Source: Henricia sp. BOLD:AAB3569
Taxonomy: Eukaryota > Echinodermata > Asteroidea > Spinulosida > Echinasteridae
Length of the DNA: 64,000 nucleotides
NCBI GenBank assembly: GCA_037783545.1
Contig: JBBELK010000620.1
Span: 2,294,001 to 2,358,000, forward strand
Direction of reading: 5' to 3'
Every line of letters starts with the position of its first letter. The first letter of the stretch is position 1. A program made the position numbers and the translations under genes. The notes beneath the pieces are model-generated. The model was given only the letters and a program-made list of their open reading frames with translations, was not told the origin of the DNA and did not search any database. This document shows positions 9,601 through 52,525 of the stretch, piece by piece.

Positions 9601-12600
9601 GCTTCATTGTGAGCCACAATTTCACCGTTTTTTCACAAAATAGGTAATAGTAGATTGTTGTCATATTACATGAAGTGTTTTTCACGTTTGTATTTTGAAT
9701 TACAAGAACAAAACAGGCATGATAAACATTCACTTCGTGTATTTTCCATTCAATACTGCACAGACCGTTTTGTATGTTTCTCAGGATGACGTCAAAACCC
9801 TGTTGATAAACAACCAAAGTGACCTCGAGCGTTTCAGAATTTCGGGTGAAGAGGGTTGGAACTGCTTTACGTTTTAAGCAAAAGCCTGTCGATTTTTTGT
9901 GAAAAACAAGTTGTTATGGTGTTGTAGACACATACACCTCCATGATAAACAAAACAATGTGGACGGGGGGGATTCTAGCTGTTTAAGGGTCGAACTATTT
10001 AGACAAATACTTAAAGTTTTATACATTTGGTTATAATTTTCAGCAAATGGCAAAATCAACAAAAATGTATTTAGCACTGCATAAAAATGTATGCACTTGT
10101 AGAAACTTTTCTTTTGCTAAAACTTGGCAATTATTTCAAATTTGCCAGATGAAAACCTGAATTACAGGTACATTTAGCACATTCAAGACCACTTTTGTAC
10201 CAGACCCCTTACTGTATACAGCATCTGAACATATCAAATTAATAAAATAAAAAATCGGTGAAATGATTTTATCAACTTACTAATTTAGTCACAAGTTTCT
10301 CCAATAAGTCTTTTCCATAGAGGTCAACAATCAGCTTGCAGGTCGTGGCCTTTGACCCCAACTTGTCACACAGGTCTCTAAGAACCCTAGTAATGTCATC
10401 CTGCAAAGAAAAGAAGAAAACAAACATTTTGACAAAGCTAGTGTTTTATGGGATTTGAATTTTTAAACATGCCCTTATCTGTTAACAGGATTTAGTTGGA
10501 CATCAGGTTGACTTTCAAAAGTTCATGCAAACAACATCCAATATTAGGAAGTTTGGCATCTGTTAAAGGAGCGTGACCAGAGTTTCTGAAAAATAGTTTT
10601 CGATGTAACTTACCAATATTATCAAGTAACTCCCATACACACCTCCCATGTCCCAAAAACCCGAAAACATTCGCGATTTCCAGTAAAAAATTGAACAAAA
10701 CTATCGAGTCGGCTTTCAGTGGATAAACGTTGATACTGGAAAATTAGTTTACAAATAAACGGTGGATTTTCGACGATATCCTCGGAAATATGCGGCCTAG
10801 AAGCGCGGGAGTTTCAGTTTCGTAATTAGAAAAATATAACGGATGTTATGATATAAAAATCTCATGACCCATAAGGTAAGTCCCGGGGAGTTATGGGTCA
10901 AAAAAAGTGATCTGGTCACACTCCTTTAAACCATGGAGGAAGGTTGTTTCCTTCCTCATTGGTTAAACCCATCTGCATTATCAGGGGATACACTCTAAAC
11001 TCACCATACAATTATCAGCGATTTAATGCAGAGAATGGTTCAGCACACTGAGAAAATTGGGCAGTGGGCGCACCCCTCAGATCCAAAAATTACTGTATTG
11101 AGGGCCGGGGGGGGGGGGTGGGGGGGGGGAGAGGGGATGGTGCAATAGCATCATGCCTCCACCCCACCCCCAATCAGTACGCCACTGATTTTAATCTTTT
11201 GTTTTATTTTATTCAGCACAAGTCTTTCTCAAATGTGAGGAATGTAGACCGAGTGTCATTGCTGTGGTTTATTTCGGGGAAACTTTAATTCTATTAAAGG
11301 GCTGTGACATGCTAAACAACTTTGTGCCTAAGCTTTGCTTCATAATGACGGATTACTTGTTCAGCAAGACATACTATTGTTCGTTTGTATGTAAAATCAA
11401 TAAAAGGTAGCCTTTTTCAGCTTTGAAGATTTCATTGCAATAAACCACAGACAGAGGGCACTGTTTGGAGTGCATCACGTAAGGAAGACAGAAGGGAGAA
11501 GTTAAGAAAAAAACATAAGACTTCAAGTTGAACTTGTGGCAAATTTTTGCAGTTTTCTCCCCCAGTTTCGACATGGCTTACAACAGGAAACACGTAGAAC
11601 AAACTAAAACAGTCATGGATTACAAAAGTTCCAGGACGTTTGAGAAAAAAAGGTGGAATATTTTGTGCACAGTTGAATGTGATTTACCTGTGTTTGCCTC
11701 TTGTGACATGACCTTGGTCATGTGCATATTTGCATTAGCATAAAAACTCAAAACCGTTGTTTTAACCCCCAAAACAAGCTCCAAATAAGACTTTTATGAA
11801 TGTAACCGAGTATATTGGTTTTATAGCATATATTTAATTGATAAAAATCCCAAATAAGGGGCCCTTTAAGCAGCTCTATGAAATTGGCCCCAGGTTGACT
11901 TTCAAATGTTTATGCTAACAACACTCAATATTAGGAAGTTTGGCATCTGTTAAACCATGGAGGAAGGTGGTTTCCTTCCTCCATGGTAAACCATCTGCAT
12001 TCTCAGGGGATACACACTCTAAATTCACCATACAATTATCAGCGATTTAATGCAGAGAATGGTTCAGCATACTTAAAAAATTGGGCAGTGGGCGCACCCC
12101 TCAGATCCAAAACGTACTGTATTGGGGGCCGGGGGGAGAGAGGACGGTGCCATAGCATTATGCCTCCACCCCACCCCCACTCAGTACGCCACTGATTTTA
12201 ATATTTTGTTTTATTTTATTCAGCACAAGTCTTTCTCAAATGTGAGGAATGTAGACCGAGTGTCATTGCTGTGGTTTATTTCGGGGAAACTTTAATTCCA
12301 TTAAAGGGCCTGTGACATGCTAAACAACTTTGTGCCTAAGCTTTGCTTCATAATGACGGATTACTTGTTCAGCAAGACATACTATTGTTCGTTTGGATGT
12401 AAAATCAATAAAAGGTGGCCTTTTTCAACTTTGAAGATTTCACTGCAATAAATCACAGACAGAGGGCGCCGTTTTGAGTGCATCACATAAGGAAGACAGA
12501 AGGGAAAAGTTAAGAAAAAACATAAGACTTTAAGTTGGACTTGTGGCAAATTACTGCAGTTTCTACCCTTAGTGGAATCTTTTGTGCACAGTTGAATGTG

Positions 12601-15600
12601 ATTTTCCTGTGTTTGCCTCACATCGTGACCTTGGTCATGAATATGCATATTTGCATTAGCATAAAACCTTTGTTTTAACCCCCAAAGCAAGCTCCAAATA
12701 TGATTTTTATGACTTTAAAGGAGTGTGACCAGATCACTTTTTTTTACCCATAACTCCCCGTTATATTTTTCTGATTACGAAACTGAAACTCCCGCGCTTC
12801 TAGGCCGCATATTTCCGAGGATATCGTCGAAAATCCACCGATTATTTGTAAACTAATTTTCCAGTATCAACGTTTATCCGCTGAAAGCATACTCGATAGT
12901 TTTGTTCAATTTTTTACTGGAAATTGCGAATGTTTTCGGGTTTTTGGGACATGGGAGGTGTGTATGGGAGTTACTTGATAATATTGGTAAGTTACATCGA
13001 AAACTATTTTCCAGAAACTCTGGTCATGCTCCTTTAACTGAGTAGAGTGGTTTTAAAGCATAGATTTCATTGATAAAAATCCTAAATAAGGGGCCCTTTA
13101 GAGTATAAAAACGTATTGCATTAACTGTGAAATTTAGGATTGGGTCAAAGCCTCATGTACAAAACAAATAGAAATCAAACCTGGACTTCTCCGTTGTTGA
13201 GGGCGCTCTTGAAATCGCTGATTAGTCCCTTACAATCTTCACACATTGCCTCATCCTGGATTGACGAACGAAACGGAACCATCATCAGAAATGGAAAACT
13301 GCTAATAATTTATTTAGTGAAGTACTAGGCCTACACAATGGAAACTTTGCACGGATGTGGTCTACTGCCAATTTGAAAAAAAAGGTTAACATCTGTGATG
13401 GATCTGTGTATCTTTAAAGATAGTATACATGATTGGTAAACTGTTCTAAATAGTTTTATCCCCCTGTGTGATTGAAGATATGCATGATTAAAATCAACCT
13501 GAGCAAAAACCAGCTCCGTACTTCGTCTAACTTTTGAGAAAACAGTCAAAAAAGGGTTTGCAGTAATTTCGCCCCAAAACTGTGCACGAAGTGGTTTTAG
13601 GGCAAAATGGCACTCGGGCGAAGTGGTTTGGGGCAAAATGGCACTTGGGCGAAATGGTTTTGGGGCGAATTGAAATTTCGTCTCATGAGACGAAAACTAA
13701 TTGATTGGAACATGATTTTAAAAAAAAGACTTACAGAACCGTTTTTGAAGCCAAAATTTCCTCTCGCGTGCAATTCGGACGAGCATTTTCTTCGTAACTG
13801 TAAATTCTTGACGCGAGAGGGCGCTGTTACAAATTAGTGGCTTTGGCTGTGGCTATGCTGTTGCCATGGGCAGACAATAAAGGTCCTTAGAAACAGCATA
13901 GTAACAGCCACAGCCAAAGCCACTAATTCGTAACAGCGCCCTCTCGCGTCCAGAATTTACAGTTACGAAGAAAATCCTCGTCCGAATTGCACGCGAGAGG
14001 AAATTTTTGCCTCAAAAAAGGTTCTGTAAGTCTTTTAAAAAAATCATATTCCAATCATGGACATCTCAAACCACTACAGGACACAACTAGGAGGAAATTT
14101 TTGGGTGTGATTCTAATTTCGAGGCAAAATGACAACAATCCACTTTATGAAAGGGGTTCCTTCTGTCCCTACGGGAAATCCCGTAGGGACAGAATAATTC
14201 TGTCTAGTAGTAGGAGTGCAATACTTGCCTTGACTACAAGATTAGCCCAATCATTCTCAATACAGTATTGCGTTGCCCCCTCGCCACACTCTTTAGCTTT
14301 CAGTGGATGGTCACACCAGTATGCAGGCCCCCACGTACAGCGTTCCGAACCAATGGCAGCAGCAGTGGCTGAAATAAAGACCACAGCCCCAGACGTTTTA
14401 ATTGCAACATAACATTTATCACTAAAATGTCCGTAAAGAGTTGAGACGTTGATCAGAATTTTGTCTTTAAAATGACTCATCAAGCATCGGTAAACTGTTC
14501 AGATTTGATGGAAAAACCAACAATTTTCAGTGGGAAAAATTTAGAATTTTGTGAGGAAACACTTAGAAATTGTTCAGCCCGTCTCATGTTTTGTACACAA
14601 GGCCTGAAGCCCTGATCAACTTCTCAATTCTTTCCAAAATGTCATTTTAATTTTTAGGAGCATGAGAAGATGAAGTGGGAAAGCAGTCTTATCTTAAAAA
14701 TGTCGGCACAGTCGCCAGGTCCGTGACAATGCCACCCTATTGTTTGATCAGGATTGTTGATGAAAAGTGGCTAATGAATAGGGTGGCGACCTCACGGACC
14801 TGGCAACTATGCCGACAATTACGTCAGTCACTGATCCTTTACCAGCCATTTTAATGACCCTCCCCGCCCCTCCCCACCCCTGTCCCTCCCCGCACCTGCC
14901 CCTGTCCCTCCCCGCACCTGCCCCTGCCCATCCCCGCCCCTCCCTACCCCTGCCTGCCCCTCCTCCCCTGGCCCTGCCTGCCCCTGCCCTCTCTCTGCAC
15001 CTGCCCCTCCCCTGCCCCTGCAACTCCCCCTGCCCCTCCTGTTCGGCCAGTCCCATAAAATTTGTCAACCGTCCATTGTCAACATGGTCGGACATGGGTG
15101 TCATGGTCTGGTCAATAACTAGCCCCGCGAGTAGTGCTTCGGGAAAACCCTCAGCCCTGTCGTCTAATGTATCCACGAGGAAGGTATAATGTTGCACTTA
15201 AGAGTTTCTCCTGAAAATTTCGGAAAAATAATGAATGTATTGATACTTTTACATTATATTTCTTTTCAGTAAAGTATCATCTCGTATCACGAAGATCTTC
15301 CGAGCTCAAGCTCATCTAGTTTCTGCTGCACAAGCGAAGTTTTGCATCGTGCGCGTTCAGCTGTGCACGGAAGTTGGGCATGTATAATGACGCACCGTAC
15401 TATCAGGCTGAAAACTACGGTGGCCAAGACAAGCTACTTTCTTCATAGAAGCAATTTTGATTAAATAATAGTCTTCTGTCAATAAAACGTGCAATTTATG
15501 TGTAGTTTTTAGCACTTGTAAAGTTTTATTTGCTGTTATATCAGACGACTTGATAATATGAAATCAAACAGTTATAACTTTAAAACCATGAAGCTACATG

Positions 15601-17349: not shown

Positions 17350-18450
17350 CCTCGGAGCTAGACTGGTTGCCTGTCCCATTACAATTACATGGTACCGGGT
17401 TAAGTAGGGACCGGAAACCAGTCTAGTATCAACTTTAGACTGGTGTCCCTGTAGTCTGGTACCCGGACCAAAAATCTTTTGACTAGACTGAATTTAAGGT
17501 CCGGCAGCCGCCAATTTCGCCATTTTGAAACAGGAGGTTCCCGAAGTTACCCTAATGCACGTCCGGACGTTAATCGTCGGGTACACTTCATCATTGTTCA
17601 GAGAATTTGAATTGACGTCGCGTGCACGTACGGGTGCTGCTGCGTGTGTATTTATGGTGATGATGCCACGGATTCAAAACTATACCCAGTAGCTATAGAA
17701 AATTAACGGTTATATGTGCTTCTAAAAATAAATGCATGACGTAATGCTTAAATATGGCGTAAACGTTGCAATACTAGTATTCGATAATGCACAAATATAT
17801 GTGCGATGTTAAATATATATGTACGATGTTTTTTCATATGTGCGATGTATTTTTCATATGTGTGCGATGTTTTTTCATATGTATGCGATGTTGAAAATAT
17901 ATGTGCAATAATTTGACATATGCAATGTTTTTTCATTCGCGCACTAATTACGTCAACTTGGTCAAATCCGTAACCGAAGTTTGCAAGCTTGATAGACTGC
18001 TGCGTGAAATTGCACTTTAGTTTCTGTCATTTAATCTGCCAGGCTGATTTATTTTTGGTACAGGCCTATTGGGGCTGGTTTTCTTTGTATTTGTGCCAAA
18101 TATCACGCACGCAAATCCACTTCTCATAGTCAGTCGTTGTATGTGGAATATGTGGAGCGGGAACCAGTCTACGCACATACATTGAAAGATCTAGACTGGT
18201 TCCCGTCCACATATTCCACACAGGAGAATAGACTGGTTCCCGTCCACATATTCCACACTTTCGCAATAAGCGAACCAATCTATAGGGATCGGGAACCAAT
18301 CTATGAAAGATCACGCCCATATATCACGAACACCGCGACCCCACACATTGAAATATCCCACATATATGTCGAAATATCCCACATATATTTTTAACATTGC
18401 ATATATATGTCAAATTATTGCACATATATTTTTAACATCGCATACATATT
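17350..18450. repeat. AGACTGGTTCC palindromes and GCACATATAT arrays
   Basis: Inverted AGACTGGTTCC motifs alternate with roughly 24-base units such as ATATGTGCGATGTT, in one orientation at 17800-17945 and the other at 18340-18445. A rearranged copy of the same assembly lies at 48470-49260. Confidence 0.7.
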
Positions 18451-18862
18451 AAGCCGCCTTCTAGCTTAGATAAATTATGAAATAAGAAGGGTCTTAAAAT
18501 CGATTTATTCAGACAAGTAGGCACTTTTTGTTACGATTTTTCAGCTGTAATATAAGAAATATTCATGTAGAATCATCATCAATCAGCTTTATCGTCATAG
18601 CAATCGATTTAATTAGTCAAACAAATTAATTGCGAAGTTGTATCCAGTGCCGGAATTAAGCCGCCTTAATCTTAGAGAAATTGGGAAATAAGAAGGGGTC
18701 TTAAAATGCGATTTATTCAGACAAGAAGGCACTTTTAATTTATATTTTTCAACTGAAGCATAAGAACAACTCATATAGAATCACAATCAACCAGCTTTAT
18801 AGTCAAAGCCATCGATTTAATTAGTCAAACAAATTAATTGCGAAGTTGTATCCAGTGCGCGA
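18451..18862. repeat. Tandem duplication, unit about 205 bp
   Basis: Two copies of a segment beginning TTAAGCCGCCTT and containing GAAATAAGAAGGGTCTTAAA and ATTGCGAAGTTGTATCCAGT, at about 18451-18653 and 18656-18862. Confidence 0.85.
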
Positions 18863-19286
18863 AGCCGCCTTAGATATGTTTTGTGCACGCACATGCGTCG
18901 CTTGAGGGCGCTCTTTGCACCTCCTTCAAAATGGCCGCGAAAATGTCGAAATGGCCTTACGAGCAAAAACAATGAACAACAAAGACACGTTTTGTGTCAA
19001 ATTTGGTGATTCCGTGGCCTGCTTTTTGGAACAAGAGATGTTCGCCTGCTCGTCTGTTCACGCCAAACTGAGGCGCGCCGAAGCCAGTTGGCACGATCGA
19101 TTTTGCTTGCATTAATAAATTTCGTCATGAATCTTTGTGAACAACGTCGGCGCATGGACGGTGGGTCGGCGCCTAGTTGTGGCCGGCTGTGCAGCTTCGC
19201 CGCCGAGTGGCTACCGGTATACGCCTATAGTTAGGTAATGTTATGCACCTTGTACTAGTGATAGTGTATACCTATCGGTAAGAGTA
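18863..19286. other. GC-richer stretch with a 66-codon open frame
   Basis: 18915-19115 is open on the plus strand and ends near AATAAA, but no family is recognisable and nothing shows it is transcribed. Left as unassigned intergenic DNA. Confidence 0.25.
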
Positions 19287-20018
19287 TAGCCCAGGTTGGA
19301 CGTCGTCTTCATTGCATTACGAGTGACGTCCAGGTCACGATGTCTCAAAACAGGGGGACTGAAAGTTCCACATAATTTTTAAGCTATATATTACCTTTTA
19401 ATGGACGTCGAATTTATGTCCATATATGCTTGACGTCTTCATTTACAGGAACGGGAGGTTTAAATGTCATATACCAAATTTGATGAACAAAATAGTGAAA
19501 TCTAAAGGCACAACCTAACGTTAAAGTTCAGAGAAATAAATAACAGCTGCCGTCGCGTCACGCTTCGTGAAGTTTGGGTAGGCTTGCGCGTGCGGCGCCA
19601 CGATGTCAGGCACGCAATGCGCCGAGGCCATGGCCTAGTTTAGTTGCGACGCGCGCACGTACGGCCGGCACGCGTACGCGGGACTACGCGCGCGCGGTTA
19701 GAACAAAATAAGCTGAACGTAACTTGGCTGGCTGTAGTACTAGTAGTGGATTATTTGTGCACAAATATATAGCAAATTAGCGTGACTTTTTGCCGTTTTC
19801 CTCCGGAATATGCAGTTCGGTGATGTGTAGTGGATTTCTAAACCCGGCAATCCCAAAGATTAGGACACATGCAACTTTGTTAGCACATTGCCGGCTTCCA
19901 GCACAAGGTAGAAATATTGATTTTTTCTGTTACAAAAATTTTCACCCTGTTTTTGGAACTTCATATCCTGGACTCCGTATCCCCATGTAGTATGCGGTAC
20001 GGAGTCCAACCTGGGCTA
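19287..20018. mobile_element. TIR element TAGCCCAGGTTGGAC, 732 bp
   Basis: Inverted ends TAGCCCAGGTTGGACGTCG and GAGTCCAACCTGGGCTA. Interior is CpG-rich and non-coding. An 88-bp relative lies at 8206-8293. Confidence 0.7.
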
Positions 20019-20086
20019 GGTAAGAGTAACTAGTGAGTTCAGTGGATTTTAGATTCTTTACCCAAATCATAACAAATATGGTATTA

Positions 20087-20813
20087 GGCCATCAGAATGA
20101 AAGTCATAGAATACCGTCCTCCGCCCGCATGACCAAATGGCCACCGCCGAAATTTTTCATTATTCAAAAATTGTTCATTATTTCAAAAAATTTAGAACTT
20201 CAACGTACTTTCAATACTTGTTCATGAAAAAAATCGATATATATGGCGCCAACCTGAGAAATTCCGACCAATCAACCAGATTTTTCGAAATCAGACGGCA
20301 GACGATAGTCTTGAGCGCGAGATCCAAGTGCTGACACACAATTCCACTGTTCGTGTTTCAGTGTAGCCGCGCGAGACTGCAAATCCGACTGAAGTCCTGG
20401 GGCGCGTTCAATAGCGCAATACGTATGCATACCGACAATACCTTCAACGGTGAAGGTATAGGAAAATACCTATACCTGGCATATGTATGTATTGTGTTAT
20501 TGAACGCGCCCCCCGATCTCACTTCGGCAATCATCGGACGTTCTGTACACGTATGTATTCCGTCATCTGATTGGCTGTTACCATCGCGACATCGAATTTT
20601 GGCCAATGAAAAATTACGTCTCATCGGTGTCTGCCTGTCATGCAATGATGGCAGACGTGAAAACGATCTGAAGACGGAAGTGCACCTCTATCATTGTCTA
20701 TGTACCCCTCGGGCACCTGTTTTACAAAATAATGAAAAATGAATAATGAAAAAAAGCCGCGTGTGTTTTTGAAATCTTCCGGACAGTATTCTATGACTTT
20801 CATTCCGATGGCC
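20087..20813. mobile_element. TIR element with TTA duplication, Harbinger-like
   Basis: Ends GGCCATCAGAATGAAAGTC and near-complement, flanked by TTA at 20084-20086 and 20814-20816, as in PIF/Harbinger insertions. Contains a second palindrome at about 20399-20514 (GGGGCGCGTTCAATA and complement) that may be an independent insert. Confidence 0.7.
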
Positions 20814-21333
20814 TTAATGGAAAGCTCGTTCCAAGAGAAATCCAACGGTGTTTGAATCAGCTTCATATCTCAAACCATTATTGAGTTATGCCATTTTTTA
20901 CATTAAAATTTGACCACTTCCTGTCTGTAAATTTTGATTTGACATCGCTCTCCTAATATTATCACAAGTTACTATTTTGTCCTTTTATGAAAGCCAACAA
21001 GTTTAGTATCATTAAAAAACTCTTTTAAAACTCTAGTCGTTGATGTTGGAATCAAATCCATACCTTTTAATATAGAAAAGATATGGTTTGTTTAAAAATG
21101 GAGGTTTGACCGTCTTTTTCGACACACTGACTGGACGGTGCTGCACTGATGGATAGTTGGGTTGCTACATGGCATTTAAAAAAAAACCAGAATTGTACTA
21201 CCAGCCCCGCCCATCAGCCCCATCCACCAGCCCTGCCCATGAGCTCCAGCCCCACACACCAGCCCTACTATTCAATCCAGCCAATCAGGCCCAAGCATCA
21301 ACCCCACCCAGCCCCACCCTATGGCATCAGCCC

Positions 21334-22208
21334 TACTTCCAAATACTGAAAGCCACCCAGACCAAACTGGGTGGCTTTCAAGAACAGCATTTTTCCCCCC
21401 ATCAAAACAGTTGGCAAAATGGAATCTTTAGTTTACTCATTTTACAGGAAATTGCTATTTTTGGTAAAATCAAAATCTCTACACGTTCTACATACCTTCC
21501 TGGCCGTAATTTTCTCAAAACTTACGTACACACCTCCGTTTTTAACAATTTGACGATCGAATTCAACTTCATAAACTTCACCTCGTGCTGACTCGTGGCA
21601 TCGTTATCTTCAGAGCAATGGCGCTCGCCTCTGACAATTTCAAGCACCAGACCAGTTCCAGCACGTACCATTTTTGGACGAGGGGGGGATTTGTTTTAGT
21701 GTGCCACTGTGTGGTCGCTGAATGAAGGATTCACGTCAAATTACCACCAAACGGCTTTTTGTCAAAGCGACCCGCGTGGCAACTTTACGAGTGAAAAGTC
21801 ATTTGACGTGAATCCTTCATTCAGCGACCACACAGTGGCACACTAAAACAAATCCCCCCCTCGTCCAAAAATGGTACGTGCTGGAACTGGTCTGGTGCTT
21901 GAAATTGTCAGAGGCGAGCGCCATTGCTCTGAAGATAACGATGCCACGAGTCAGCACGAGGTGAAGTTTATGAAGTTGAATTCGATCGTCAAATTGTTAA
22001 AAACGGAGGTGTGTACGTAAGTTTTGAGAAAATTACGGCCAGGGAGGTATGTAGAACGTGTAGAGATTTTGATTTTACCAAAAATAGCAATTTCCTGTAA
22101 AATGAGTAAACTAAAGATTCCATTTTGCCAACGGTTTTGATGGGGGGAAAAATGCTGTTCTTGAAAGCCACCCAGTTTGGTCTGGGTGGCTTTCAGTATT
22201 TGGAAGTA
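21334..22208. mobile_element. Foldback A, TACTTCC family (Mutator-like)
   Basis: Long inverted arms (about 400 bases each) start TACTTCCAAATACTGAAAG. The 9-10 base target duplication GCATCAGCC(C) lies at 21324-21333 and 22209-22218. A unique loop of about 60 bases at 21741-21800. Confidence 0.9.
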
Positions 22209-22243
22209 GCATCAGCCCCACCCTATGGCATCAGCCCCACCCT

Positions 22244-23121
22244 TACTTCCAAATACTGAAAGCCACCCAGACCAAACTGGGTGGCTTTCAAGAACAGCAC
22301 TTTTTTTCCCCATCAAAATCATTGCTCAAAATGGAATCTTTAGACAAGTCATTTTACAGGAAATTGCATTTTTTGGTAAAATCAAAATCTCTACACGTTC
22401 TACATACCTCCCTGGCCGTAATTTTCTCAAAACTTACGTACACACCTCCGTTTTTAACAATTTGACGATCGAATTCAACTTCATAAACTTCACCTCGTGC
22501 TGACTCGTGGCATCGTTATCTTCAGAGCAATGGCGCTCGCCTCTGACAATTTCAAGCACCAGACCAGTTCCAGCACGTACCATTTTTGGACGAGGGGGGA
22601 TTTGTTTTAGCGTGCCACTGTGTGCTCGGTGAATGAAGGATTCACGTCAAATGACTTTTCACTCGTAAAATTGCCACGCGGGTCGCTTTGACAAAAAGCC
22701 GTTTGGTGGTAATTTGACGTGAATCCTTCATTCACCGACCACACAGTGGCACGCTCAAACAAATCCCCCCTCGTCCAAAAATGGTACGTGCTGGAACTGG
22801 TCTGGTGCTTGAATTTGTCAGAGGCGAGCGCCATTGCTCTGAAAAAACGATGCCACGAGGTCAGCACGAGTTGAAGTTTATGAAGTTGAATTAGATCGTC
22901 AAATTGTTAAAAACGGAGTTGTGTACGTAAGTTTTGAGAAAATTACGGCCAGGGAGGTATGTAGAACGTGTAGAGATTTTGATTTTACCAAAAATTGCAA
23001 TTTCCTGTAAAATGACTTGTCTAAAGATTCCATTTTGAGCAACGATTTTGATGGGGAAAAAAAAGTGCTGTTCTTGAAAGCCACCCGGTTTGGTCTGGGT
23101 GGCTTTCAGTATTTGGAAGTA
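22244..23121. mobile_element. Foldback B, TACTTCC family
   Basis: Same family as A but with the loop in the opposite orientation, so inserted the other way round. Target duplication CCCCACCCT at 22235-22243 and, beyond foldback C, at 24903-24911. Confidence 0.9.
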
Positions 23122-23124
23122 CCC

Positions 23125-24896
23125 TACTTCCAAATACTGAAAGCCGTCCAGATCAAACTGTACGGCTTTCAAGAGCAGCATTTTTCCCCCCATCAAAACC
23201 GTTGCTCAAATGGAATCTTTAGTTTACTCATTTTACAGGCAATTGCTATTTTTGGTAAAAATCTGAATCTCCACACGTTCTACATACCTCCCTGGCTGAA
23301 ATTGTCTGAAAAGTGGCGTACACTGGTCCGTAAAACCCGAATCTTTCAGGAGCAATCATACCGCATGTCTTGTTAATTTTTTCCCAATAAACAAGATGGC
23401 GGATGTAGACTCGGCGCAGTTGTTCTTTCGGCCACCAGCACGTACTAGCACGGTACAGACAAGGGGGGCGCTGTTCACATTTATTCGCTCTTGCCTGTGG
23501 GCATGTACCGTACCGCCGTCCGGCGCTCCGCTGGCGAATCCACAGTCACTGACGCGAGTACACGTTAAAAATGTGATATATTTCCTCATGGCTTGCATCT
23601 CTGAATTGTTTATATATTTTTGTAAATTAATAGTTAGTTAGAAAACCTACAAGCTGTTTAATTATCGACCAATTACTCTCAAAATGATTGTCCATGTATG
23701 ACAATTGCGTTGTTTACACGGTTGCCAATGTCTCAACTACGAATGAAGTATGATTTTTTCTTCAGCAATTCCGTTAGATGACGAAAAATATTGCCACCCA
23801 ACTCCCCTTCCCTCCCTCCCAATTAAACAAATTGTAAAACAAAAATCAGAAAGGACTCGATGAGAACCACAGAACCTCTGGAAATTATACAATTCCATGC
23901 CTATAGCTTTTGAGTAAGGATGCCGCCAACTTTTTTAAGCACCTGCAGCCGATTTCACGAATCCTAACGCACTGCGTAAGTCCGCTTGCGCAACATTTTA
24001 TTGCGTAGGCTGCGCAACATTCCTGTGAAAATTACACGCAAGCTATAGGGCTTGCGCCATTCGTGAAATCGGCTGCAGGTGCTTAAAAAAGTTGGCGGCA
24101 TCCTTAATCAAAAGCTATAGGCATGGAATTGTATAATTTCCAGAGGTTCTGTGGTTCTCATAGAGTCCTTTCTGATTTTTGTTTTACAATTTGTTTAATT
24201 GGGAGGGAGGGAAGGGGAGTTGGGTGGCAATATTTTTCGTCATCTAACGGAATTGCTGAAGAAAAAATCATACTTCATTCGTAGTTGAGACATTGGCAAC
24301 CGTGTAAACAACGCAATTGTCATACATGGACAATCATTTTGAGAGTAATTGGTCGATAATTAAACAGCTTGTAGGTTTTCTAACTAACTATTAATTTACA
24401 AAAATATATAAACAATTCAGAGATGCAAGCCATGAGGAAATATATCACATTTTTAACGTGTACTCGCGTCAGTGACTGTGGATTCGCCAGCGGAGCGCCG
24501 GCCGGCGGTACGGTACATGCCCACAGGCAAGAGCGAATAAATGTGAACAGCGCCCCCCTTGTCTGTACCGTGCTAGTACGTGCTGGTGGCCGAAAGAACG
24601 ACTGCGCCGAGTCTACATCCGCCATCTTGTTTATTGGGAAAAAATTAACAAGACATGCGGTATGATTGCTCCTGAAAGATTCGGGTTTTACGGACCAGTG
24701 TACGCCACTTTTCAGACAATTTCAGCCAGGGAGGTATGTAGAACGTGTGGAGATTCAGATTTTTACCAAAAATAGCAATTGCCTGTAAAATGAGTAAACT
24801 AAAGATTTCATTTGAGCAACGGTTTTGATGGGGGGAAAAATGCTGCTCTTGAAAGCCGTACAGTTTGATCTGGACGGCTTTCAGTATTTGGAAGTA
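23125..24896. mobile_element. Foldback C, TACTTCC family, 1.77-kb near-perfect palindrome
   Basis: Arms of about 870 bases fold at about 24010. Flanked by GAAGTACCC (23116-23124) and GAAGTGCCC (24897-24905). Each arm has the same 81-codon frame (23396-23641 plus, 24380-24625 minus) and its antisense, which are mirror images and not evidence of two genes. Confidence 0.9.
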
Positions 24897-24902
24897 GAAG
24901 TG

Positions 24903-25790
24903 CCCCACCCTATGGCATCAGCCCCACCCTATGGCATCAGCCCCACCCTGGCATCAACCCTTATACATGACATGTCATGCCTACCCACCTCGCCCATCAC
25001 CCATCCCCGCCGGCGCCGCCAGGTATAGGAGGCCCGCAATTTATACACACCGGCCCCATGAGCTCCTGCTAGTGATACGCTACGTTTTGAAGTAGGTCTC
25101 GGACTAAGTTACATGGCGTTGAAAATTTATGTGTCGCCATTTTTCGCTAGCGCTAAACTGTCATTTTTTATGTCATTCTGAACTAAAAATATCCATTCTT
25201 TTCATTTATAATGGTTTCAGATGGTGTCTCAAATTCCTTTAGTACTAAAATCCATCATTTTCTTTACAAATTGAACATGAAAATTACCCGTTTTTAGTGC
25301 AAAATAAACAGACTAGACGATGGTGTCCCCTCCACCAAAATACAACAAACATGGTATCAATCGAGAGCGTGTTTCGTAATCTTCACGATGAAAACGGAAC
25401 AAAGGTCATAAGTCAAAAGAGAAAGGTCACAGAGGCCTTTTGATGACGTCTGTCTGCAACGTCATCAAGCAAGATGGCCGCACCCTTCGGCAACCCACAA
25501 AAATAATTTGCCGAGTATGTCAAATTGGAAGGTAAATTTTACAGTGTTAAACTCGGCATTTCGTACAATTTGAGACATCACTTGAAAAAGGGATCCTCCA
25601 TCTCTTCAAAAATTATTTTAAAATCGAATTTGAGCAACTAGAACTATTCTAAATATCGCAAAGTTTTGGGCCATTTTCCCCACGCTTCCAGATACAATCG
25701 TCAATTTTACGTTTTTCACTGAACTCGCTAGTAAGAGTTGAGAAGCGGACCCTGTTGACTTATTAAGCATCGTTAAAAGGGTTAACCTGT
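24903..25790. other. GGCATCAGCCCCACCCTAT repeats then unassigned DNA
   Basis: A few copies of a roughly 20-base CCACCCTATGGCATCAGCC unit continue the target sequence of foldbacks A-C. Beyond 25050 nothing is recognised. Confidence 0.5.
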
Positions 25791-25820
25791 TATGCCTGTG
25801 CAGATTTGATGGGAAAAACC

Positions 25821-27161
25821 TACTTTTAGAAGGCTAAAAGTGATTTTCTGATGTTTACATTGGGTCGTGATGAATCACTTTTAGCCCCTTACCAATTGAA
25901 CCCCATTCGCCCACGTTGAACAAAGCTGCACGACCAAGATGGCGGCCGTTCTCCAAAGTGAAATTTGACCCGACAGTCAAAATTAAACATTGAAAATCTC
26001 ACCATGGAAGTCCCTGGAATCTCCAGAATCTAGTACCGTGGTCTATTTTCCCCGATGATTCTTCTAAACAGGGCAAAAACTAGTCCAACATCATTTTTCT
26101 TCACATTTTCCGAGTTTACTGTTCAGAACAGCTTGACGTAGTCAGTCAGCTGTCCTTTCATACAGTGGATTGTTGTCATTTTTCCTCCAAATTAGAATCA
26201 CACCCAAAAATTTCCTCCTAGTTGTGTCCTGCAGTGGTTTCAGATGTCCATGATTGGAAAATCATTGAAAGAAAATACTTACAACACCGTTTTTGAAAAA
26301 TTCGAAGTTTTTCCATGACCAAATCTTTCGGGGCGCTTATAAAATAAACTTGAGGATATTCTTTACCGATTAGAAGGAAAAAAATTGTGGAATTTTTCCT
26401 TTTTCGATTTTACAAAATCATTTGAAAAGCGCGGCATCTGTGCGTGGAATTGTGCCTAACTTTCCATCGACCTTTCGAGCATTTCCGGAAACCGTAAAAT
26501 TAACAATATGTACAAAATCCGGCCAGCCGAAATTCCGGCCCGAATTTCGTGCTAGGTTCCGGCTGGTTCTCAACTCCAGAATTATTAACACGTCAACGAG
26601 GAAATCTGTCGGTCAGTTTGCATTTGGGAGAACATTTTTGCTTCAAAAACGGTGTTGTAAGTATTTTCTTTCAATCATTTTCCAATCATGGACATCTGAA
26701 ACCACTGCAGGACACAACTAGGAGGAAATTTTTGGGTGTGATTCTAATTTGGAGGCAAAATGACAACAATCCACTGTATGAAAGAGGTACCTTCTGTCCC
26801 TACGGGAAATCCGTAGGGACAGAATTATTCTGTCTAAGCTTGACGTTGACGTAAAACTAGCACAGCAAATGAGGATCGAGATATACCGCCCTCTTGTGGT
26901 CACCTCATTGTACTGCAGTGACGTCATAGATTCAGTGCAGTGACGGTACTAGATTCTGGAGATTCCAGGGACTTCCATGGTGAGATTTTCAATGTTTAAT
27001 TTTGACTGTCGGGTCAAATTTCACTTTGGAGAACGGCCGCCATCTTGGTCGTGCAGCTTTGTACAACGTGGGCGAATGGGGTTCAATTGGTAAGGGGCTA
27101 AAAGTGATTCATCACGACCCAATGTAAACATCAGAAAATCACTTTTAGCCTTCTAAAAGTA
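25821..27161. mobile_element. Foldback D with 9-bp target duplication, host of foldback E
   Basis: Ends TACTTTTAGAAGGC and complement; target duplication GGAAAAACC at 25812-25820 and 27162-27170. Arms of about 220 bases; the loop contains another complete element. Confidence 0.9.
26140..26837. mobile_element. Foldback E nested in D, TCTGTCTA-end family
   Basis: Target duplication GCTTGACGT at 26131-26139 and 26838-26846. Arms include TCCTAGTTGTGTCCTGCAGT. The asymmetric right end carries TCCCTACGGGAAATCCGTA. Confidence 0.85.
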
Positions 27162-27215
27162 GGAAAAACCAATATTTTGGGTGAGAATAGTTTAAGATTT
27201 TGTGAGGAAACACTT

Positions 27216-28105
27216 AGTCAGCTTTCCTTTCATCAGGTGGATTGTTGTCATTTTGCCTCGAAATTAGAATCACACCCAAACAATTCCTCCTAGTTGTGTC
27301 CTGCAGTGGTTTTAGATGTCCATGATTGGAAAATGATTGGAAAGAAATACTTACAACACCGTTTTTGAAGCCAAACGTTGCTCTCACATTGAAACTCAAC
27401 AGCAGTTCCTGTCGTGCAATGTGTAAATCTCGACGTGAAATCTCGCAAGAATGTACACTAGTTGGGCATGCCCAATTGCAGACAGACTGTATCAAGCCTT
27501 ATCGTTAATCGGGCACAAATACATTTACACGTACGCAGTCCTTTCCGTGCCGCTAGCGCTGTACGCACTGAGGAAATGACTTGGCTGCTCTTTCCGACGG
27601 CTATTTCATTACTTAACACTTAATGTCAACCATGTCACATTGTTGACATTAAGTGTTAAGTAATGAAACAGCCGTCGGAAAGAGCAGCCAAGTCATTTCC
27701 TCAGTGCGTACAGCGCTAGCGGCACGGAAAGGACTGCGTACGTGTAAATGTATTTGTGCCCGATTAACGATAAGGCTTGATACAGTCTGTCTGCAATTGG
27801 GCATTGGGCAGGCCCAACTAGTGTACATTCTCGCGAGATTTCACGTCGAGATTTACACATTGCACGACAGGAACTGCTGTTGAGTTTCAATGTGAGAGCA
27901 ACGTTTGGCTTCAAAAACGGTGTTGTAAGTATTTCTTTCCAATCATTTTCCAATCATGGACATCTAAAACCACTGTAGGACACAACTAGGAGGAAATATT
28001 TGGGTGTGATTCTATTTTCCAGGCAAAATGACAAAAATGCACTGTATGAAAGAGGTACCTTCTGTCCCTACGGGAAATCTCGTAGGGACAGAATTATTCT
28101 GTCTA
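27216..28105. mobile_element. Foldback F, TCTGTCTA-end family
   Basis: Duplication GGAAACACTT at 27206-27215 and 28106-28115. Centre at about 27635 is CACTTAATGTCAACC facing its complement. Arms of about 400 bases. Confidence 0.88.
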
Positions 28106-28269
28106 GGAAACACTTAGAAATTTTCCAGTCTGTTTGTACACGAGTTCTGAAGCCATAATAAACTTCTCAATTCTTTAAAGATGAGCACAATTTTTTTTTG
28201 TATTTGTGAATATATACTCTACAATTCTTTAAAGATGCTCGTCATACTATAGGGACTGCTAACCCAATC

Positions 28270-28945
28270 TACCCCTAGAACTATGGGGGATAATGTATCC
28301 CCCATAGGTACCGGTAATGTTTTTTTCTTTCCAATATGGCGGCGCCTGAACTTTAAGATCGGACAGAAACGTTTTTGGCTAGCGCAATAATCCGCTGCCC
28401 AATCGCCACCAAACTCCGTCTGATAGTTCTTGAGACACTCACCTTGCGTGTGTCTACGGAATTTCTGTACCATTTGTCCATTAAATTCTCCTAAAAAATG
28501 TTGGGAAATGAACGGGAACATGTGCGATGCATCCACATGCGTGATCCAGGCATTTGGTAAAAGCCGGAGTTGCCGGAACTCCCGGAGTTGCCGGATCAGC
28601 TGGGACCAATAAAAAATCCAAGCAGTTCCGGCAACTCTGGGAGTTCTGGCAACTCCGGCTTTTACCGAATGCCTGGATCTCGCATGTGGACGCATCGCAC
28701 ATGTTCCCGTTCATTTCCCAACATTTTTTAGGAGAATTTAATGGACAAATGGTACCAAAATTCCTTAGACACACGCAAGGTGAGTGTCTCAAGAACTATC
28801 AGACGGAGTTTGGTGGCGATTGGGCAGCGGATTATTGCGCTAGCCGAAAACGTTTCTGTCCGATCTTAAAGTTCAGGCGCCGCCATATTGGAAAAAAACA
28901 ACATTACCTATGGGGGATACATTATCCCCCATAGTTCTAGGGGTA
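28270..28945. mobile_element. Foldback G with 9-bp duplication
   Basis: Ends TACCCCTAGAACTATGGGGG and complement; perfect duplication AACCCAATC at 28261-28269 and 28946-28954. Centre near 28600 in a GGAGTTGCCGG-rich loop. Confidence 0.92.
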
Positions 28946-28954
28946 AACCCAATC

Positions 28955-30000
28955 CACATACATGCCCAGGATTCGAAAGGGGTACGCCAGAGGAAAGGCG
29001 AGGAAAGAACCACTACGCCAACCGGACCGCCCTTAGGCAAATTAAATTAAAAATGATCAACGGGGGTTTTACTGCAGGTTGTTTCTTTCTTATTTGTTTG
29101 TTTGAAAGAAGAAATACAAATAAAGCAAACTAACAAAACAGACAAAGTGAGAATTTTATCAATATAAATTTCTTTATATTATTGATAACAATTTAAAACA
29201 ATGTAACGGTACAATTCCAAGATTTTGGGTATTAGGCTATAAATAGTTTCATTATGTAATAATGTACGACTAACTAATTTTGACAAAATTAAAACCTCCC
29301 AGATATAGATGTTTAAAAATCATACACCTCAGGCGACAGACAAAAAAAGGAACATAGTTAGTCACACGAATGTGGTCACGTGACGTCTGACTGTCACGTT
29401 CCTACATAATCATGATAATGCCGTATTCCACTCATGCTCGGGAGATAACTAATATTATCTTCAAGCAAAATTGACGCACTAATAACACGCGCACTCTGCA
29501 AGTACTACATGTACTCCGCGCATATGCGTAGGGACACAGTTATCTTGGAATACCATGGTGCATTTACCGGTACGCAGAGTGCAATATGAGAATCGGAAGA
29601 GTATTATGAAACATTATCACACTGTTGGTTGCCTTGGATCCACCAATCAAAACGACGGATTCAAGTTTGCTTGAAGATATATTAAGTTATCAACATTTGA
29701 AGTTATACAGGGTGTATCAGAAAAAGTAGACACTCATAAAATTGTAGATAAAATGAAAATTGTAGTATTTTTAGAAAATTGGCTCACAAATATTGAAATA
29801 TCGGTAGACATAGGTTTCGAGTTTTCATTAACGTCGTCATCATGTTGGGAATTTCACACCTGGCTGAACAGGGGCTAGTTTTGTAAACAAAGCTAAAATT
29901 AACTTGCGCATAAAAATGGAAGATGCAAAACAGGATCAAGGAGCACGAGAGGTCAATTTGACATGTCCTTTTTTTGCTATCAGCTTATCAGAAAGTATAG
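28955..30000. other. Intergenic, nothing recognised
   Basis: No gene. ACAGGGTGTATCAGAAAAA at about 29709 resembles a common DNA-transposon end and recurs inverted at about 48448-48465, but no matching partner is adjacent. Confidence 0.35.
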
Positions 30001-30024
30001 CTTTACAGAAAGTGTGTACCTTGA

Positions 30025-30600
30025 AGGGGCATCGGGGCCAACTCAGCAGGGCATGAGGCCATTGGCCTTGGAGCCTTGGTTAATGTCAAGGCCTGGGATA
30101 GGGTATGCTGGCCAAGTTGGCCCCAGAAAGTGTATATCTTGAAGGGGCATCGAGGCCAACTCAGCAGGGCATGAGGCCAACTCAGCAGGGCATGAGGCCA
30201 ACTCAGCAGGGCATAAGGCCATTGGCTTTGGTAGCCTTGGTTAATGTCAAAGCTTGGGATTGAACCCTTTCGAACACGTGCGAATATGCCATTTTGGGAG
30301 TCAAATAATGCTGAGTCATTGTGGAAGCAATGTGCGTGCGCGTTGTGTGTGTCTCTTGTGGGCGTAACGCGGTTTAGTTCACCAATGGGAGCCTCATCAT
30401 AGCGCGTTACGCGCGCTATGGACACACACAACGCGCACGCACATTGCTTCCACATTGACGCAGCATTGTTTTACTCCCAAAATGACGTCATTGGCACGAG
30501 CTCAATAGGGCATGATGGCCAAGTTGGCTTCAGAAAGTGTATCTTGAAGGGGCATCGGGGCCAACTCAGCAGGGCATGAGGCCATTGGCCTTGGTGACTT
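30025..30600. repeat. GGCCAACTCAGCAGGGCATGA repeats with an inserted palindrome
   Basis: Several imperfect copies of CAACTCAGCAGGGCATGAGG. They are interrupted at about 30285-30487 by an inverted repeat with arms CGCGTTGTGTGTGTC and complement. Confidence 0.75.
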
Positions 30601-30795
30601 TGGTTAATGTCAAAGCCTGGATTGGTTGCATTTCTGTCACAGTTGCTAATTTTTTTTCATTATGTATTCACAGATTGGAGATGGAGCCCACAGACTGTGG
30701 AGCTTCATATTACACACTACAAAAATGGACGTGTTGCCATGGATACTGAAAACACAGGAGAGGTGAGTTTTTGGCCATCATTCCAATTTTATTAC

Positions 30796-30954
30796 AGTGG
30801 AATTTCGCTATAATGAACACCAAAAAGAACATTCAGCTACAGTGAACATCGCTCATGGCTCCCAATCATTTGTTCGCGTTAAACGCCACCAAAACAAACA
30901 CTTGTATGGTTCAGATACGATGCCCATTTATGGTGACTTTCCACTGTATTAAAA
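30796..30954. mobile_element. Small TIR element, pogo-like ends
   Basis: Left end ACAGTGGAATTTCGCTATAA and right end TTCCACTGT. It shares GGCTCCC and GTTCGCG-type motifs with the element at the left edge of the window. Confidence 0.5.
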
Positions 30955-31203
30955 CTTGTCTAGCTTCCGCTTATAGGCATGCATGGGTAGGGCTTCCTCA
31001 AAGATGATATAGCAGCAAAAGTGCAAGATAGCCCACCCATGCGAAATCAATTCAATAAAGTGAAGTATGTAAAGGCACCATTTTAGTAATAAGCAAACTA
31101 GACGCGCCTTGTGTCTGTTTGACATGCCTCTCGTAGTGTAATCTGTGTCGCGGCGAATAGTTACAGCGGCATCCACACTTGGGATGAGAGAAAAGTCGTA
31201 AGG

Positions 31204-32828
31204 GCTTTATCGGGATTCCAACCTGACACCTGTGACTCACTGGGCAGAAGCTCTACCATCTGAGCTATAAGGCACAGTGGTATACTCCCTCAGATTTTCC
31301 CCAAGACCTCTGCCACACCAGGCAGATGCTCTACCAGCTGAGCCATAAGGCACAGTGGTATACTCCCTCAGATTTTCCCCAAGACCTCTGACTCACCAGA
31401 CAGACACTCCACCAGCTGCTGAGCTATAAGGCACAGTAGTATACTCCCTCAGGTTTCCCCCAAGACCTATGACACACCAGGCAGATGCTCTACCAGCTGA
31501 GCTATAAGGCACAGTGGTATACTCCGTCAGGTTTTCCCCAAGACCTCTGACACACCAGGCAGATGCTCTACCAGCTGAGCTATAAGGCAAAGTGGTATAC
31601 TCCCTCAGATTTTCCCCAAGACCTCTAACTCACCAGACAGACGCTCTACCAGCTGAGCTATAAGGCACAGTGGTATACTCCCTCATATTTTCCTTAAGAC
31701 CTTTTACACACCAGGCAGATGCTCTACCAGCTGAGCTATAAGGCACAGTAGTATACTCCCTCAGATTTTCCCCAAGACCTCTAACTCACCAGACAGACGC
31801 TCTACCAGCTGAGCTATAAGGCACAGTGGTATACTCCCTCATATTTTCCTTAAGACCTTTTACACACCAGGCAGATGGTCTACCAGCTGAGCTATAAGGC
31901 ACAGTAGTACATGTTATACACCCTCAGATTTTCCCCAAGACCTCTGACACACCAGGCAGATGCTCTACCAGCTGAGCTATAAGGCACAGTGGTATACTCC
32001 CTCAGGTTTTCCCCAAGACCTCTGACACACCGGGCAGATGCTCTACCAGCTGAGCTATAAGGCACAGTGGTATATTCCCTCAGGTTTTCCCTAAGACCTC
32101 TGACACACCGGGCAGACGCTCCACCAGCTGAGCTACATGTATAAGGCACAGTGGTATACTCCCTCAGGTTTTCCCCCAAGAGCTCTGACACACCGGGCAG
32201 ATGCTCTACCAGCTGAGCTATAAGGCACAGTAGTATACTCCCTCAGGTTTTCTCCAAGACCTCTGACACACCAGGCAGATGCTCTACCAGCTGAGCTATA
32301 AGGCACAGTGGTATACTCCCTCAGATTTTCCCCAAGACCTCTGACACACCGGGCAGATGCTCTACCAGCTGAGCTATAAGGCACAGTGGTATACTCCCTC
32401 AGGTTTTCCCCAAGACCTCTGACACACCGGGCAGATGCTCCACCAGCTGAGCTATAAGGCACAGTGGTATACTCCCTCAGGTTTTCCCCCCAAGACCTCC
32501 GACACACCGGGCAGATGCTCCACCAGCTGAGCTATAAGGCACAGTGGTATACTCTGTCAGGTTTTCCCCAAGACCTCTGACACACCGGGCAGACGCTCCA
32601 CCAGCTGAGCTATAAGGCACAGTAGTATACATGTACACCCTCAGATTTTCCCCAAGACCTATGACACACCAGGCAGATGCTCTACCAGCTGAACTATAAG
32701 GCAAAGTGGTATACTCCCTCAGGTTTTCCCCAAGACCTCTGACTCACCAGACAGATGAGCTACAGGGCAGACGCTCTACCATCTGAGCTATAAGGCACAG
32801 TGGTATACTCCCTCAGGTTTTCCCCAAG
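31204..32828 (-). repeat. Tandem array of about 20 tRNA 5'-half-like units
   Basis: On the minus strand each 76-82 base unit reads TTATAGCTCAGCTGGTAGAG, a perfect pol III A box and D-arm, then an anticodon-arm-like segment ending CAGAGGTC, then a spacer AACCTGAGGGAGTATACCAC. No B box or T-arm is present, so these are not tRNA genes. Overlapping open frames of 65-124 codons across the array are repeat artefacts. Confidence 0.85.
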
Positions 32829-47284: not shown

Positions 47285-48132
47285 CAGTGAATGAGCAGTG
47301 AATGAGAAGTGAATGAGCAGTGGATGAGAAGTGAATGAGAAGTGAATGAGAAGTGGATGAGAAGTGAATGAGCAGTGGATGAGCAGTGAATGAGCAGTGA
47401 ATGAGCAGTGAATGAGAAGTGAATGAGAAGTGAATGAGCAGTGAATGAGAAGAATGAGAAGTGAATGAGAAGGATGAGCAGTGAATGAGAAGTGAATGAG
47501 AAGTGAATGAGAAGTGAATGAGAAGTGAATGAGAAGTGAATGAGAAGTGAATGAGAAGTGAATGAGAAGTGAATGAGAAGTGAATGAGAAGTGAATGAGA
47601 AGAATGAGAAGTGAATGAGCAGTGAATGAGAAGTGAATGAGAAGTGAATGAGCAGTGAATGAGCAGTGAATGAGCAGTGAATGAGCAGTGAATGAGCAGT
47701 GAATGAGCAGTGAATGAGCAGTGAATGAGCAGTGAATGAGCAGTGAATGAGAAGTGAATGAGAAGTGAATGAGAAGTGAATGAGAAGTGAATGAGAAGTG
47801 AATGAGAAGTGAATGAGAAGTGAATGAGAAGTGAATGAGAAGTGAATGAGCAGTGAATGAGCAGTGAATGAGCAGTGAATGAGCAGTGAATGAGCAGTGA
47901 ATGAGCAGTGAATGAGCAGTGAATGAGCAGTGAATGAGCAGTGAATGAGCAGTGAATGAGCAGTGAATAAGCAGTGAATGAGAAGTGAATGAGAAGTGAA
48001 TGAGAAGTGAATGAGAAGTGAATGAGAAGGATGAGCAGTGAATGAGAAAGATGATGAGCAGTGAATGAGCAGTGAATGAGAAGAATGAACAGTGAATGAG
48101 AAGAATGAACAGTGAATGAGAAGGATGAGCAG
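47285..48132. repeat. 11-bp minisatellite, over 70 copies
   Basis: Units AGTGAATGAGC and AGTGAATGAGA in alternating blocks. Eleven is not a multiple of 3, so minus-strand frames of 310 and 323 codons (Ser/His/Leu/Ile/Phe repeats) arise purely from the repeat and are rejected as genes. Confidence 0.97.
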
Positions 48133-52452: not shown

Positions 52453-52525
52453 GGCTAGGCAGCTCGGCTGGTAGAGTGCTGGTTCTGCAAAGTAGAGGTC
52501 CTGGGTTCAACTCCCAGATTAGCCA
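52453..52525 (+). tRNA. tRNA-like sequence, TGC anticodon position, probably pseudogene or SINE head
   Basis: Seventy-three bases fold as a cloverleaf: acceptor with 6 of 7 pairs, D-arm GCTC/GAGT, anticodon loop TCTGCAA, variable loop AGGTC, perfect T-arm CTGGG/CCCAG with TTCAACT. The A box and B box (GGTTCAACTCC) are good. But position 33 is C rather than the near-invariant T, there is a mismatch in two stems, and the Ala G3:U70 pair is absent. Not a confident functional tRNA-Ala. Confidence 0.45.

Follow-up and report, generated by a model that had tools for sequence, protein, structure and literature searches.

The 64,000 nucleotides of Henricia sp. analysed here (contig JBBELK010000620.1, positions 2,294,001 to 2,358,000; hereafter the window), part of a genome of 740.7 Mb in 2104 contigs, hold seven long inverted repeats, A to G, within 7.6 kb, and raise the question of what these foldbacks are, which enzyme moved them and whether a choice of target brought them together. 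The initial annotation had described them as Mutator-like elements of three end families and had read their density as a preferred landing zone or as self-insertion. We confirmed that A to G are inverted-repeat transposon insertions with target site duplications (TSDs) of 9-10 bp. Furthermore, we consider it probable that they represent four families of non-autonomous cut-and-paste transposons, likely mobilised by a Mutator-like element (MULE), at a locus with the insertion history proposed below. In this text, L-numbers denote fetched loci and C-numbers (C1, C62, C246 etc.) denote contigs, whereas the single letters A to G are the window foldbacks. Element ends and duplications were set by script and are, without assignment of strand:

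A, 21334..22208, no strand: foldback of 875 bp, ends TACTTCC; TSD GCATCAGCCC of 10 bp at 21324-21333 and 22209-22218
B, 22244..23121, no strand: foldback of 878 bp, A/B/C family; TSD CCCCACCCT, its right copy split by C
C, 23125..24896, no strand: foldback of 1772 bp, A/B/C family; target GAAGT(A/G)CCC, with one mismatch, straddling B's right tip
D, 25821..27161, no strand: 1341 bp including E; ends TACTTTTAGAAGG; TSD GGAAAAACC
E, 26139..26836, no strand: 698 bp, nested in D; ends TAGTCAG / TAGACAG; TSD AGCTTGACG(T)
F, 27215..28105, no strand: 891 bp, E's family; TSD GGAAACACT
G, 28270..28945, no strand: foldback of 676 bp, ends TACCCCTAG; TSD AACCCAATC

All seven foldbacks with their flanking duplications are present in the 7.6 kb as first described, with a 10-bp duplication in A and one mismatch in C; the TSD of E measures 9 bp, or 10 bp with a T shared with the element end. 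The three end families of the initial annotation had to be replaced by four, represented by TACTTCC (A, B and C), TACTTTTAG (D), TAGTCAG/TAGACAG (E and F) and TACCCCTAG (G). The longest ungapped arms cover 839 nt in C (99% complementarity), 412 nt in A (99%), 285 nt in G (95%), 250 nt in F (95%), 221 nt in D (100%), 204 nt in B (98%) and 143 nt in E (99%), with gaps between the arms of 53 bp in A, 96 bp in C and 11 bp between the inner arms of G, which is the structure of a foldback. The loops of A and B (21745-21797 and 22656-22708) appear by eye to be oppositely oriented despite the matching arms. Tandem Repeats Finder (minimum score 50) detected no array within A-G, and a Pfam scan of five window frames gave no match. 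The target of C takes in the last bases of B, the right TSD of which is seen only with C set aside, and C thus landed on B's tip. From the start of A to the end of G only 1124 bp are pre-existing sequence; a Poisson value of 2e-5 for seven elements in 7.6 kb is post hoc and is not relied on.

The duplications withstand local controls. A and B are flanked by a tandem array, and such repeat flanks could mimic a duplication:

24902..24960, + strand: 19-bp tandem array GCCCCACCCTATGGCATCA, a remnant right of C; target of A and B

Matches at a lag of 19 nt across the A junction amount to 34/44 with one TSD copy versus 29/54 with both, and across the B junction to 53/60 versus 47/69. Because the 19-bp phase is kept with one copy and broken with two, the TSDs of A and B are not mere array repeats. 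In three 10-kb sister copies (L069-L071) the array continues without A, B or C. For D and F, empty sites were scanned with 40 bases across the junction and at most 5 mismatches, which returned 22 (D) and 23 (F) identifiers, of which three (L069-L071) are duplicates and L065/L066 are one element. The empty site with a single 9-mer occurs at 18 distinct paralogous loci for D, reading ...GATGGGAAAAACCAATATT..., and at 19 for F, reading ...GTGAGGAAACACTTAGAAA... Among the loci scanned, the window alone has an insertion at the site of F; at that of D, L049 is the one other locus with an insertion, of a different element. A copy of D without E was not found among the fetched loci. Inverted termini, a duplication of fixed length and empty sites with a single copy together identify cut-and-paste DNA transposons with terminal inverted repeats (TIRs). 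Elsewhere in the window, a diverged fragment (~76%) at 14473-14633 of the large repeat described below holds both the GGAAAAACC (14510) and the GGAAACACT (14555) sites.

Duplications also flank family members throughout the genome, an excess of 9-mers whose absence would, according to the initial annotation, have refuted its reading: exact TSDs were found for 24/26 C-family, 8/10 D-family and 7/10 E-family copies, versus 0/180 in the control. A search with the C arm yielded at least 42 matches (40 of 1119 candidates were scored), from which 30 loci were cut out; these gave 13 element pairs (four loci were unpaired) with 11 exact TSDs and nine distinct flanks, the window's C having one mismatch and one pair having no TSD. 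The 24/26 C-family relatives outside the window with exact 9-10 bp TSDs (20/22 with distinct flanks) comprise 11/12 arm-search pairs, 2/3 longer members judged from their printed ends, 10/10 copies from listed places and a single copy on contig C62 with GGGTTAGAC at both sides (1/1). The D-family TSDs are likewise exact over 9-10 bp. The ten E-family copies, taken among 40 listed, have exact 9-mers in seven cases, two of which share a flank (6/9 with distinct flanks); of the remainder, one has an 8-mer, one none and one no right end within 1.5 kb. Mismatched flank pairings from 10 C and 10 D copies never matched over 8 bp or more (0/180), against 18/20 true pairs. Exact tip matches number 528 for C (254+274), 426 for D (197+229) and 110 for the right end of E (61+49), and reversed patterns of these tips gave 0 matches. 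That the palindromes result from inverted duplication or misassembly, as arms of up to 100% identity and the adjacency of A, B and C might suggest, is highly improbable in the face of the TSDs and the hundreds of dispersed tips; it is contradicted by the empty sites and was rejected.

Not all seven elements arrived here by local insertion. A search with G gave at least 82 matches (40 of 978 candidates were scored), and 30 loci were fetched with G as bait, one of them being the window and two the ends of one element. The presence of G at these loci is by construction, whereas a shared flank is not. Of the loci, 30/30 carry the left flank GCTAACCCAATC or the corresponding sequence in reverse orientation, and 23/30 the right TSD; because all fetched loci share this flank, G marks one ancestral site in a large repeat that was multiplied. 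We call this repeat the carrier:

18448..32489, + strand (provisional span): carrier, a large repeat with no long open frame; it contains G and the 19-bp array, and further insertions followed in this copy

The flanks of G elsewhere match the window at 24902-25820 and from 28105 onward at ~90-98%. Two carrier copies that were met without G as bait also hold G (contig C246, L026/L032; contig C62, L127), and the empty-site scan of loci revealed no carrier site lacking G. G is a passenger carried within a larger repeat, not a local event, and its reading as an independent insertion at this place is not supported. An inherited insertion of this type can be mistaken for a local one when the surrounding repeat is not compared with its sister copies. 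The three 10-kb copies align partly with window 17943-32489 and carry different insertions; the leftward match of L070 stops at 20916, and 17943-18452 is inverted in L069 and L071. The common start TATGGCGTGTGG of L069 and L071 is possibly the left edge of the carrier.

The TSDs and empty sites show a staggered cut of 9 bp, sometimes 10 bp, with duplications of that length, made by a transposase provided in trans. In the history that we propose, G would have entered the large repeat, which would then have spread through the genome; in the window copy A, B, D and F would have inserted independently, followed by C on the tip of B and E inside D.

Whether the remaining density reflects target choice was examined by the proximity of tips elsewhere. 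The set consisted of the first 100 listed tips each of C and D so far as they lie on contigs C1-C96, together with the listed E tips of these contigs (60 C, 72 D and 23 E elements); the window cluster lies outside that list. Within 3 kb there are four C-D pairs versus 0.19 expected (p 4e-5), two C-E pairs versus 0.06 (p 0.002) and one D-D pair versus 0.11, expectations that depend on the first 100 listed C and D places and on a span of ~140 Mb estimated from the listed fraction. C-D and C-E neighbours are hence 20-30 times commoner than expected, with small counts, and the annotated clustering beyond random is supported for these combinations but not for D-E, where one pair versus 0.07 (p 0.07) is not significant alone. 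Widening to 10 kb left the C-D and C-E numbers unchanged and added a single D-E pair. Six C-C pairs were found versus 0.08 expected; the members of the group on contig C96 follow one another at an even 546 bp, possibly because of a tandem duplication. Contig C62 alone supplies three of the seven cross-family pairs, which are thus not independent; on this contig a D copy lies within a G arm, and the GGGTTAGAC target of the C copy covers the first bases of an E tip. On contig C246 (L032) 18 bp separate a C copy from the tip of G, and in L101 a D copy is 15 bp away from a further D-like tip. Overall, another tip was present within 40 bp in 5/43 events scanned: two in the window, one of which is the A-B neighbour, that on contig C62, which was chosen for proximity, and L032 and L101, which were not so chosen (2/36 others).

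Two further loci show reuse of targets. L049 holds a different D-like element exactly at D's target in another carrier copy, with 73-76% identity to D over the outer 100 bp and no likeness elsewhere, which could also be explained by an ancestral insertion followed by replacement of the arms. On contig C45 a C-family copy uses the 10-mer of A, in an array of like kind. It is possible, though in our view doubtful, that there is no landing preference at all and that the cluster results from the spread of a preloaded carrier combined with ordinary tolerance of insertions in non-coding repeats. G is just such a passenger, and several of the many carrier copies hold other repeats; however, 18 other loci lack an insertion at the site of D and 19 at that of F, C-D and C-E pairs recur elsewhere on a scale of a few kb, and the contig C45 element sits at A's 10-mer. 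The clustering is likely real and some insertion preference is likely; the proposed landing zone or self-insertion is supported in part, by the C-D and C-E excess (small counts) and by the position of C copies at or near tips. Clustering, which the small counts support, would come about because the families accept or favour repeats as targets, among them one another's tips and recurrent sites of the carrier.

A feature new to these foldbacks, and unexpected, is a hairpin shared by their tips. The first 90 nt of each end were scanned for stems with at most one mismatch and loops of 3-40 nt, with 100 dinucleotide shuffles per end. A score of 12-14 was reached at 12/14 window ends and the observed score by 0/100 shuffles per end, and among inner-arm tiles 0/28 scored 12 (best 9). 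Stems of 12-14 bp, beginning at nt 10-14 from the tip, occur in each of the four families:

A hairpin, 21347..21380, + strand: perfect 14-bp stem, nt 14-47 from the tip
D hairpin, 25832..25886, + strand: perfect 14-bp stem, nt 12-66 from the tip; at both ends
E right-end hairpin, 26792..26824, - strand: 14-bp stem, nt 13-45 from the tip; 13 bp at the right end of F
G hairpin, 28279..28309, + strand: 14-bp stem with one mismatch (12 bp perfect); at both ends

Equivalents of the A hairpin are present at both ends of A, B and C, with 12 bp at the right end of B and one mismatch in C. The left ends of E and F seem to lack the hairpin-bearing stretch. Comparison of CCACCCAG-CTGGGTGG in A/B with CCGTCCAG-CTGTACGG in C revealed two compensated pairs and one lost pair, and GTGA-TCAC in D versus GTGT-ACAC in D-like elements is one compensated pair. 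Indels seem to have shifted several G and E variants against the fixed columns, so that they were scored as unpaired, and another insert interrupts one C row; the resulting counts do not serve as a test. The left end of L049 failed the scan (score 6), and by eye has a one-base bulge and a loop over the limit. The transposase probably recognises the ends in part through this hairpin. Rather unlikely, in our estimate, is the further proposal that all families form one group whose transposase reads a hairpin or cruciform 10-14 nt inside the tips and inserts preferentially at or beside such tips and at repeated carrier sites; if true, the structure would be kept while the sequence is free to change, and nested foldback clusters would result.

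Mobilisation by a Mutator-type enzyme is likely but unproven. TSDs of 8-11 bp, mostly 9 bp, as quoted for MULEs along with TIRs of 14-500 bp (PMC6446971), were found in the C, D and E families; the terminal inverted repeats are long (ungapped arms of 143-839 nt), with only the 839-nt arm of C exceeding the quoted range, and MULE genes are present in the genome. The MULE domain profile PF10551 has 19 genome matches. A FLYWCH domain accompanies the MULE domain in L001; L006 and L008 have the MULE domain alone, and L085 and L086 have it with another domain. L001, L003, L004 and L005 (C504:607-644 kb) are related MULE genes ~12-13 kb apart, with FLYWCH in the only one scanned. L006 and L007 form another related pair of MULE genes, 98% alike over 2.1 kb, whose ends consist of 16-bp repeats GGTCGTTTCGTACCCA. 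Outside the tandem-repeat ends of L006 a 10-bp duplication CCTGCATGGC was noted by eye, which suggests that duplications of this length are made by one of the genome's MULEs.

Several observations weigh against the MULE-mobilised, hairpin-bearing families proposed here. A MULE transposase gene with these ends, which the initial annotation suggested looking for, was not encountered: the 10/19 MULE loci examined (L001-L008, L085 and L086) have no foldback ends, so that the annotated Mutator affiliation fits in TSD and arm length but is not established. None of these ends occurs in the 3.3 kb read of L001 and each of its three relatives, and the ends of L006 and L007 differ from foldback ends in being tandem repeats. 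A TACTTTTAG 9-mer in L086 was dismissed as a chance match. The elements read, including the longer C-family members L082, L083 and L084, showed no transposase gene. The C copies L038/L035 and L082, the D copies L091 and L099 and the E copy L078 have no TSD. The hairpin scan found no hairpin at the left ends of E and F, one A/B/C end keeps 12/14 pairs, and one D-like end of L040 has a broken pair. Targets show a bias for T at -2 and A at +2 (38/66 half-sites at 33 targets, p 1e-6 uncorrected, at a position picked after looking at the data), found in C (18/30) and D (14/18) but in only 5/16 half-sites of E, and this difference speaks against one shared enzyme. The set for this bias omits three C sites with 10-bp TSDs, the 10-bp site on contig C154, A, B and C of the window, L049, the contig C62 site, duplicated loci and any copy lacking an exact 9-mer. 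Finally, MULEs of maize and rice are reported to enter other transposons rarely (7-9% of coding MULEs) and to favour genic or low-copy regions (PMC3903597), a habit unlike the clustering in repeats seen here.

The middle of L083 (C33:508661-512157) contains, by eye, a reverse-transcriptase-like fragment, captured or nested. Merlin-type (IS1595) transposons make TSDs of 8-9 bp. A non-Mutator DDE transposase, either Merlin/IS1595 or of an unrecognised group, could also give 9-bp duplications, the foldback form and hairpins then being independent of MULEs; we regard this as rather unlikely. The genome has 20 matches to IS1595/Merlin-type transposase domains, of which three tie for the top score and have long open frames, and to this may be added the absence of foldback ends from the MULE loci examined (10/19), the plant insertion habits (PMC3903597) and the caution of the Tm1 authors that foldback-like elements need not all belong to one lineage (PMC3169594). 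On the other hand, the only Merlin-type locus read (L130, 1/20) has no foldback ends beyond a chance 7-mer, and no TIR or TSD of its own was found there; moreover, 9-10 bp TSDs and long arms lie within the MULE ranges (PMC6446971), except for C's arm. We keep the MULE as the most likely enzyme, judged by TSD, arm length and the MULE genes present.

The window contains other repeats. Six other long inverted repeats, as well as an E-like copy (13724-14036) and a repeat at 30290-30484, were scanned for TIR and TSD and gave no convincing 9-bp case; a 10-mer at 13727 was rejected as a TSD, being A-rich and within the E-like copy. At 10563-13037 lies a 2.5-kb inverted-repeat element with ends AGGAGCGTGACC / AGGAGCATGACC and TTAA on both sides, which looks like a TTAA-targeting transposon; relatives of its end adjoin carrier DNA in L043 and L051. 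A 78-bp tandem array at 31228-32757, tRNA-like by eye, lies within the stretch matching L069, and the one Rfam tRNA match (52453-52525) is separate from it. The 11-bp unit AGTGAATGAGA is present in 77 copies at 47286-48123.

The elements are of a known general kind of transposon; G had been misread as local, clustering is probable and the hairpin merits follow-up. With four families, many copies, empty sites and a co-changing hairpin in one genome, tip recognition and target choice become directly testable. Galileo, of the P superfamily, has a TSD of 7 bp. Its long terminal repeats are foldback-like, and it shows that membership in Mutator does not follow from foldback shape alone. Similar to A-G, Tm1 of root-knot nematodes comprises mostly non-coding foldbacks with 9-bp TSDs (8-10 bp in 45/53) and was found with a FLYWCH+MULE (Phantom-type) transposase (PMC3169594). 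Phantom-type MULEs (PMC3169594, PMC6446971) are represented here by the same protein type in L001, without foldback ends. Whereas the arms of Tm1 are 13-15 bp tandem repeats (PMC3169594), those of A-G are not built of tandem subrepeats; they are unique, with a subterminal hairpin and no linked transposase. Some Tm1 elements have a histone hairpin between the arms, unlike the hairpins near the tips of A-G, and Tm1 has no clear target consensus (PMC3169594), in contrast to the weak T(-2)/A(+2) bias of the C and D families. In the literature searched, mainly openly accessible, no report of a shared tip hairpin in foldbacks with 9-bp TSDs was found, and the main text of the report on Tetris from Drosophila virilis does not contain 'hairpin', 'subterminal' or 'palindrom' (PMC4079207). 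Tetris otherwise resembles the Henricia elements as a foldback with TSDs of 8-10 bp for which no transposase is known, and was assigned to Mutator by TSD and structure alone; foldbacks without a transposase are thus classed by TSD length and shape (PMC4079207).

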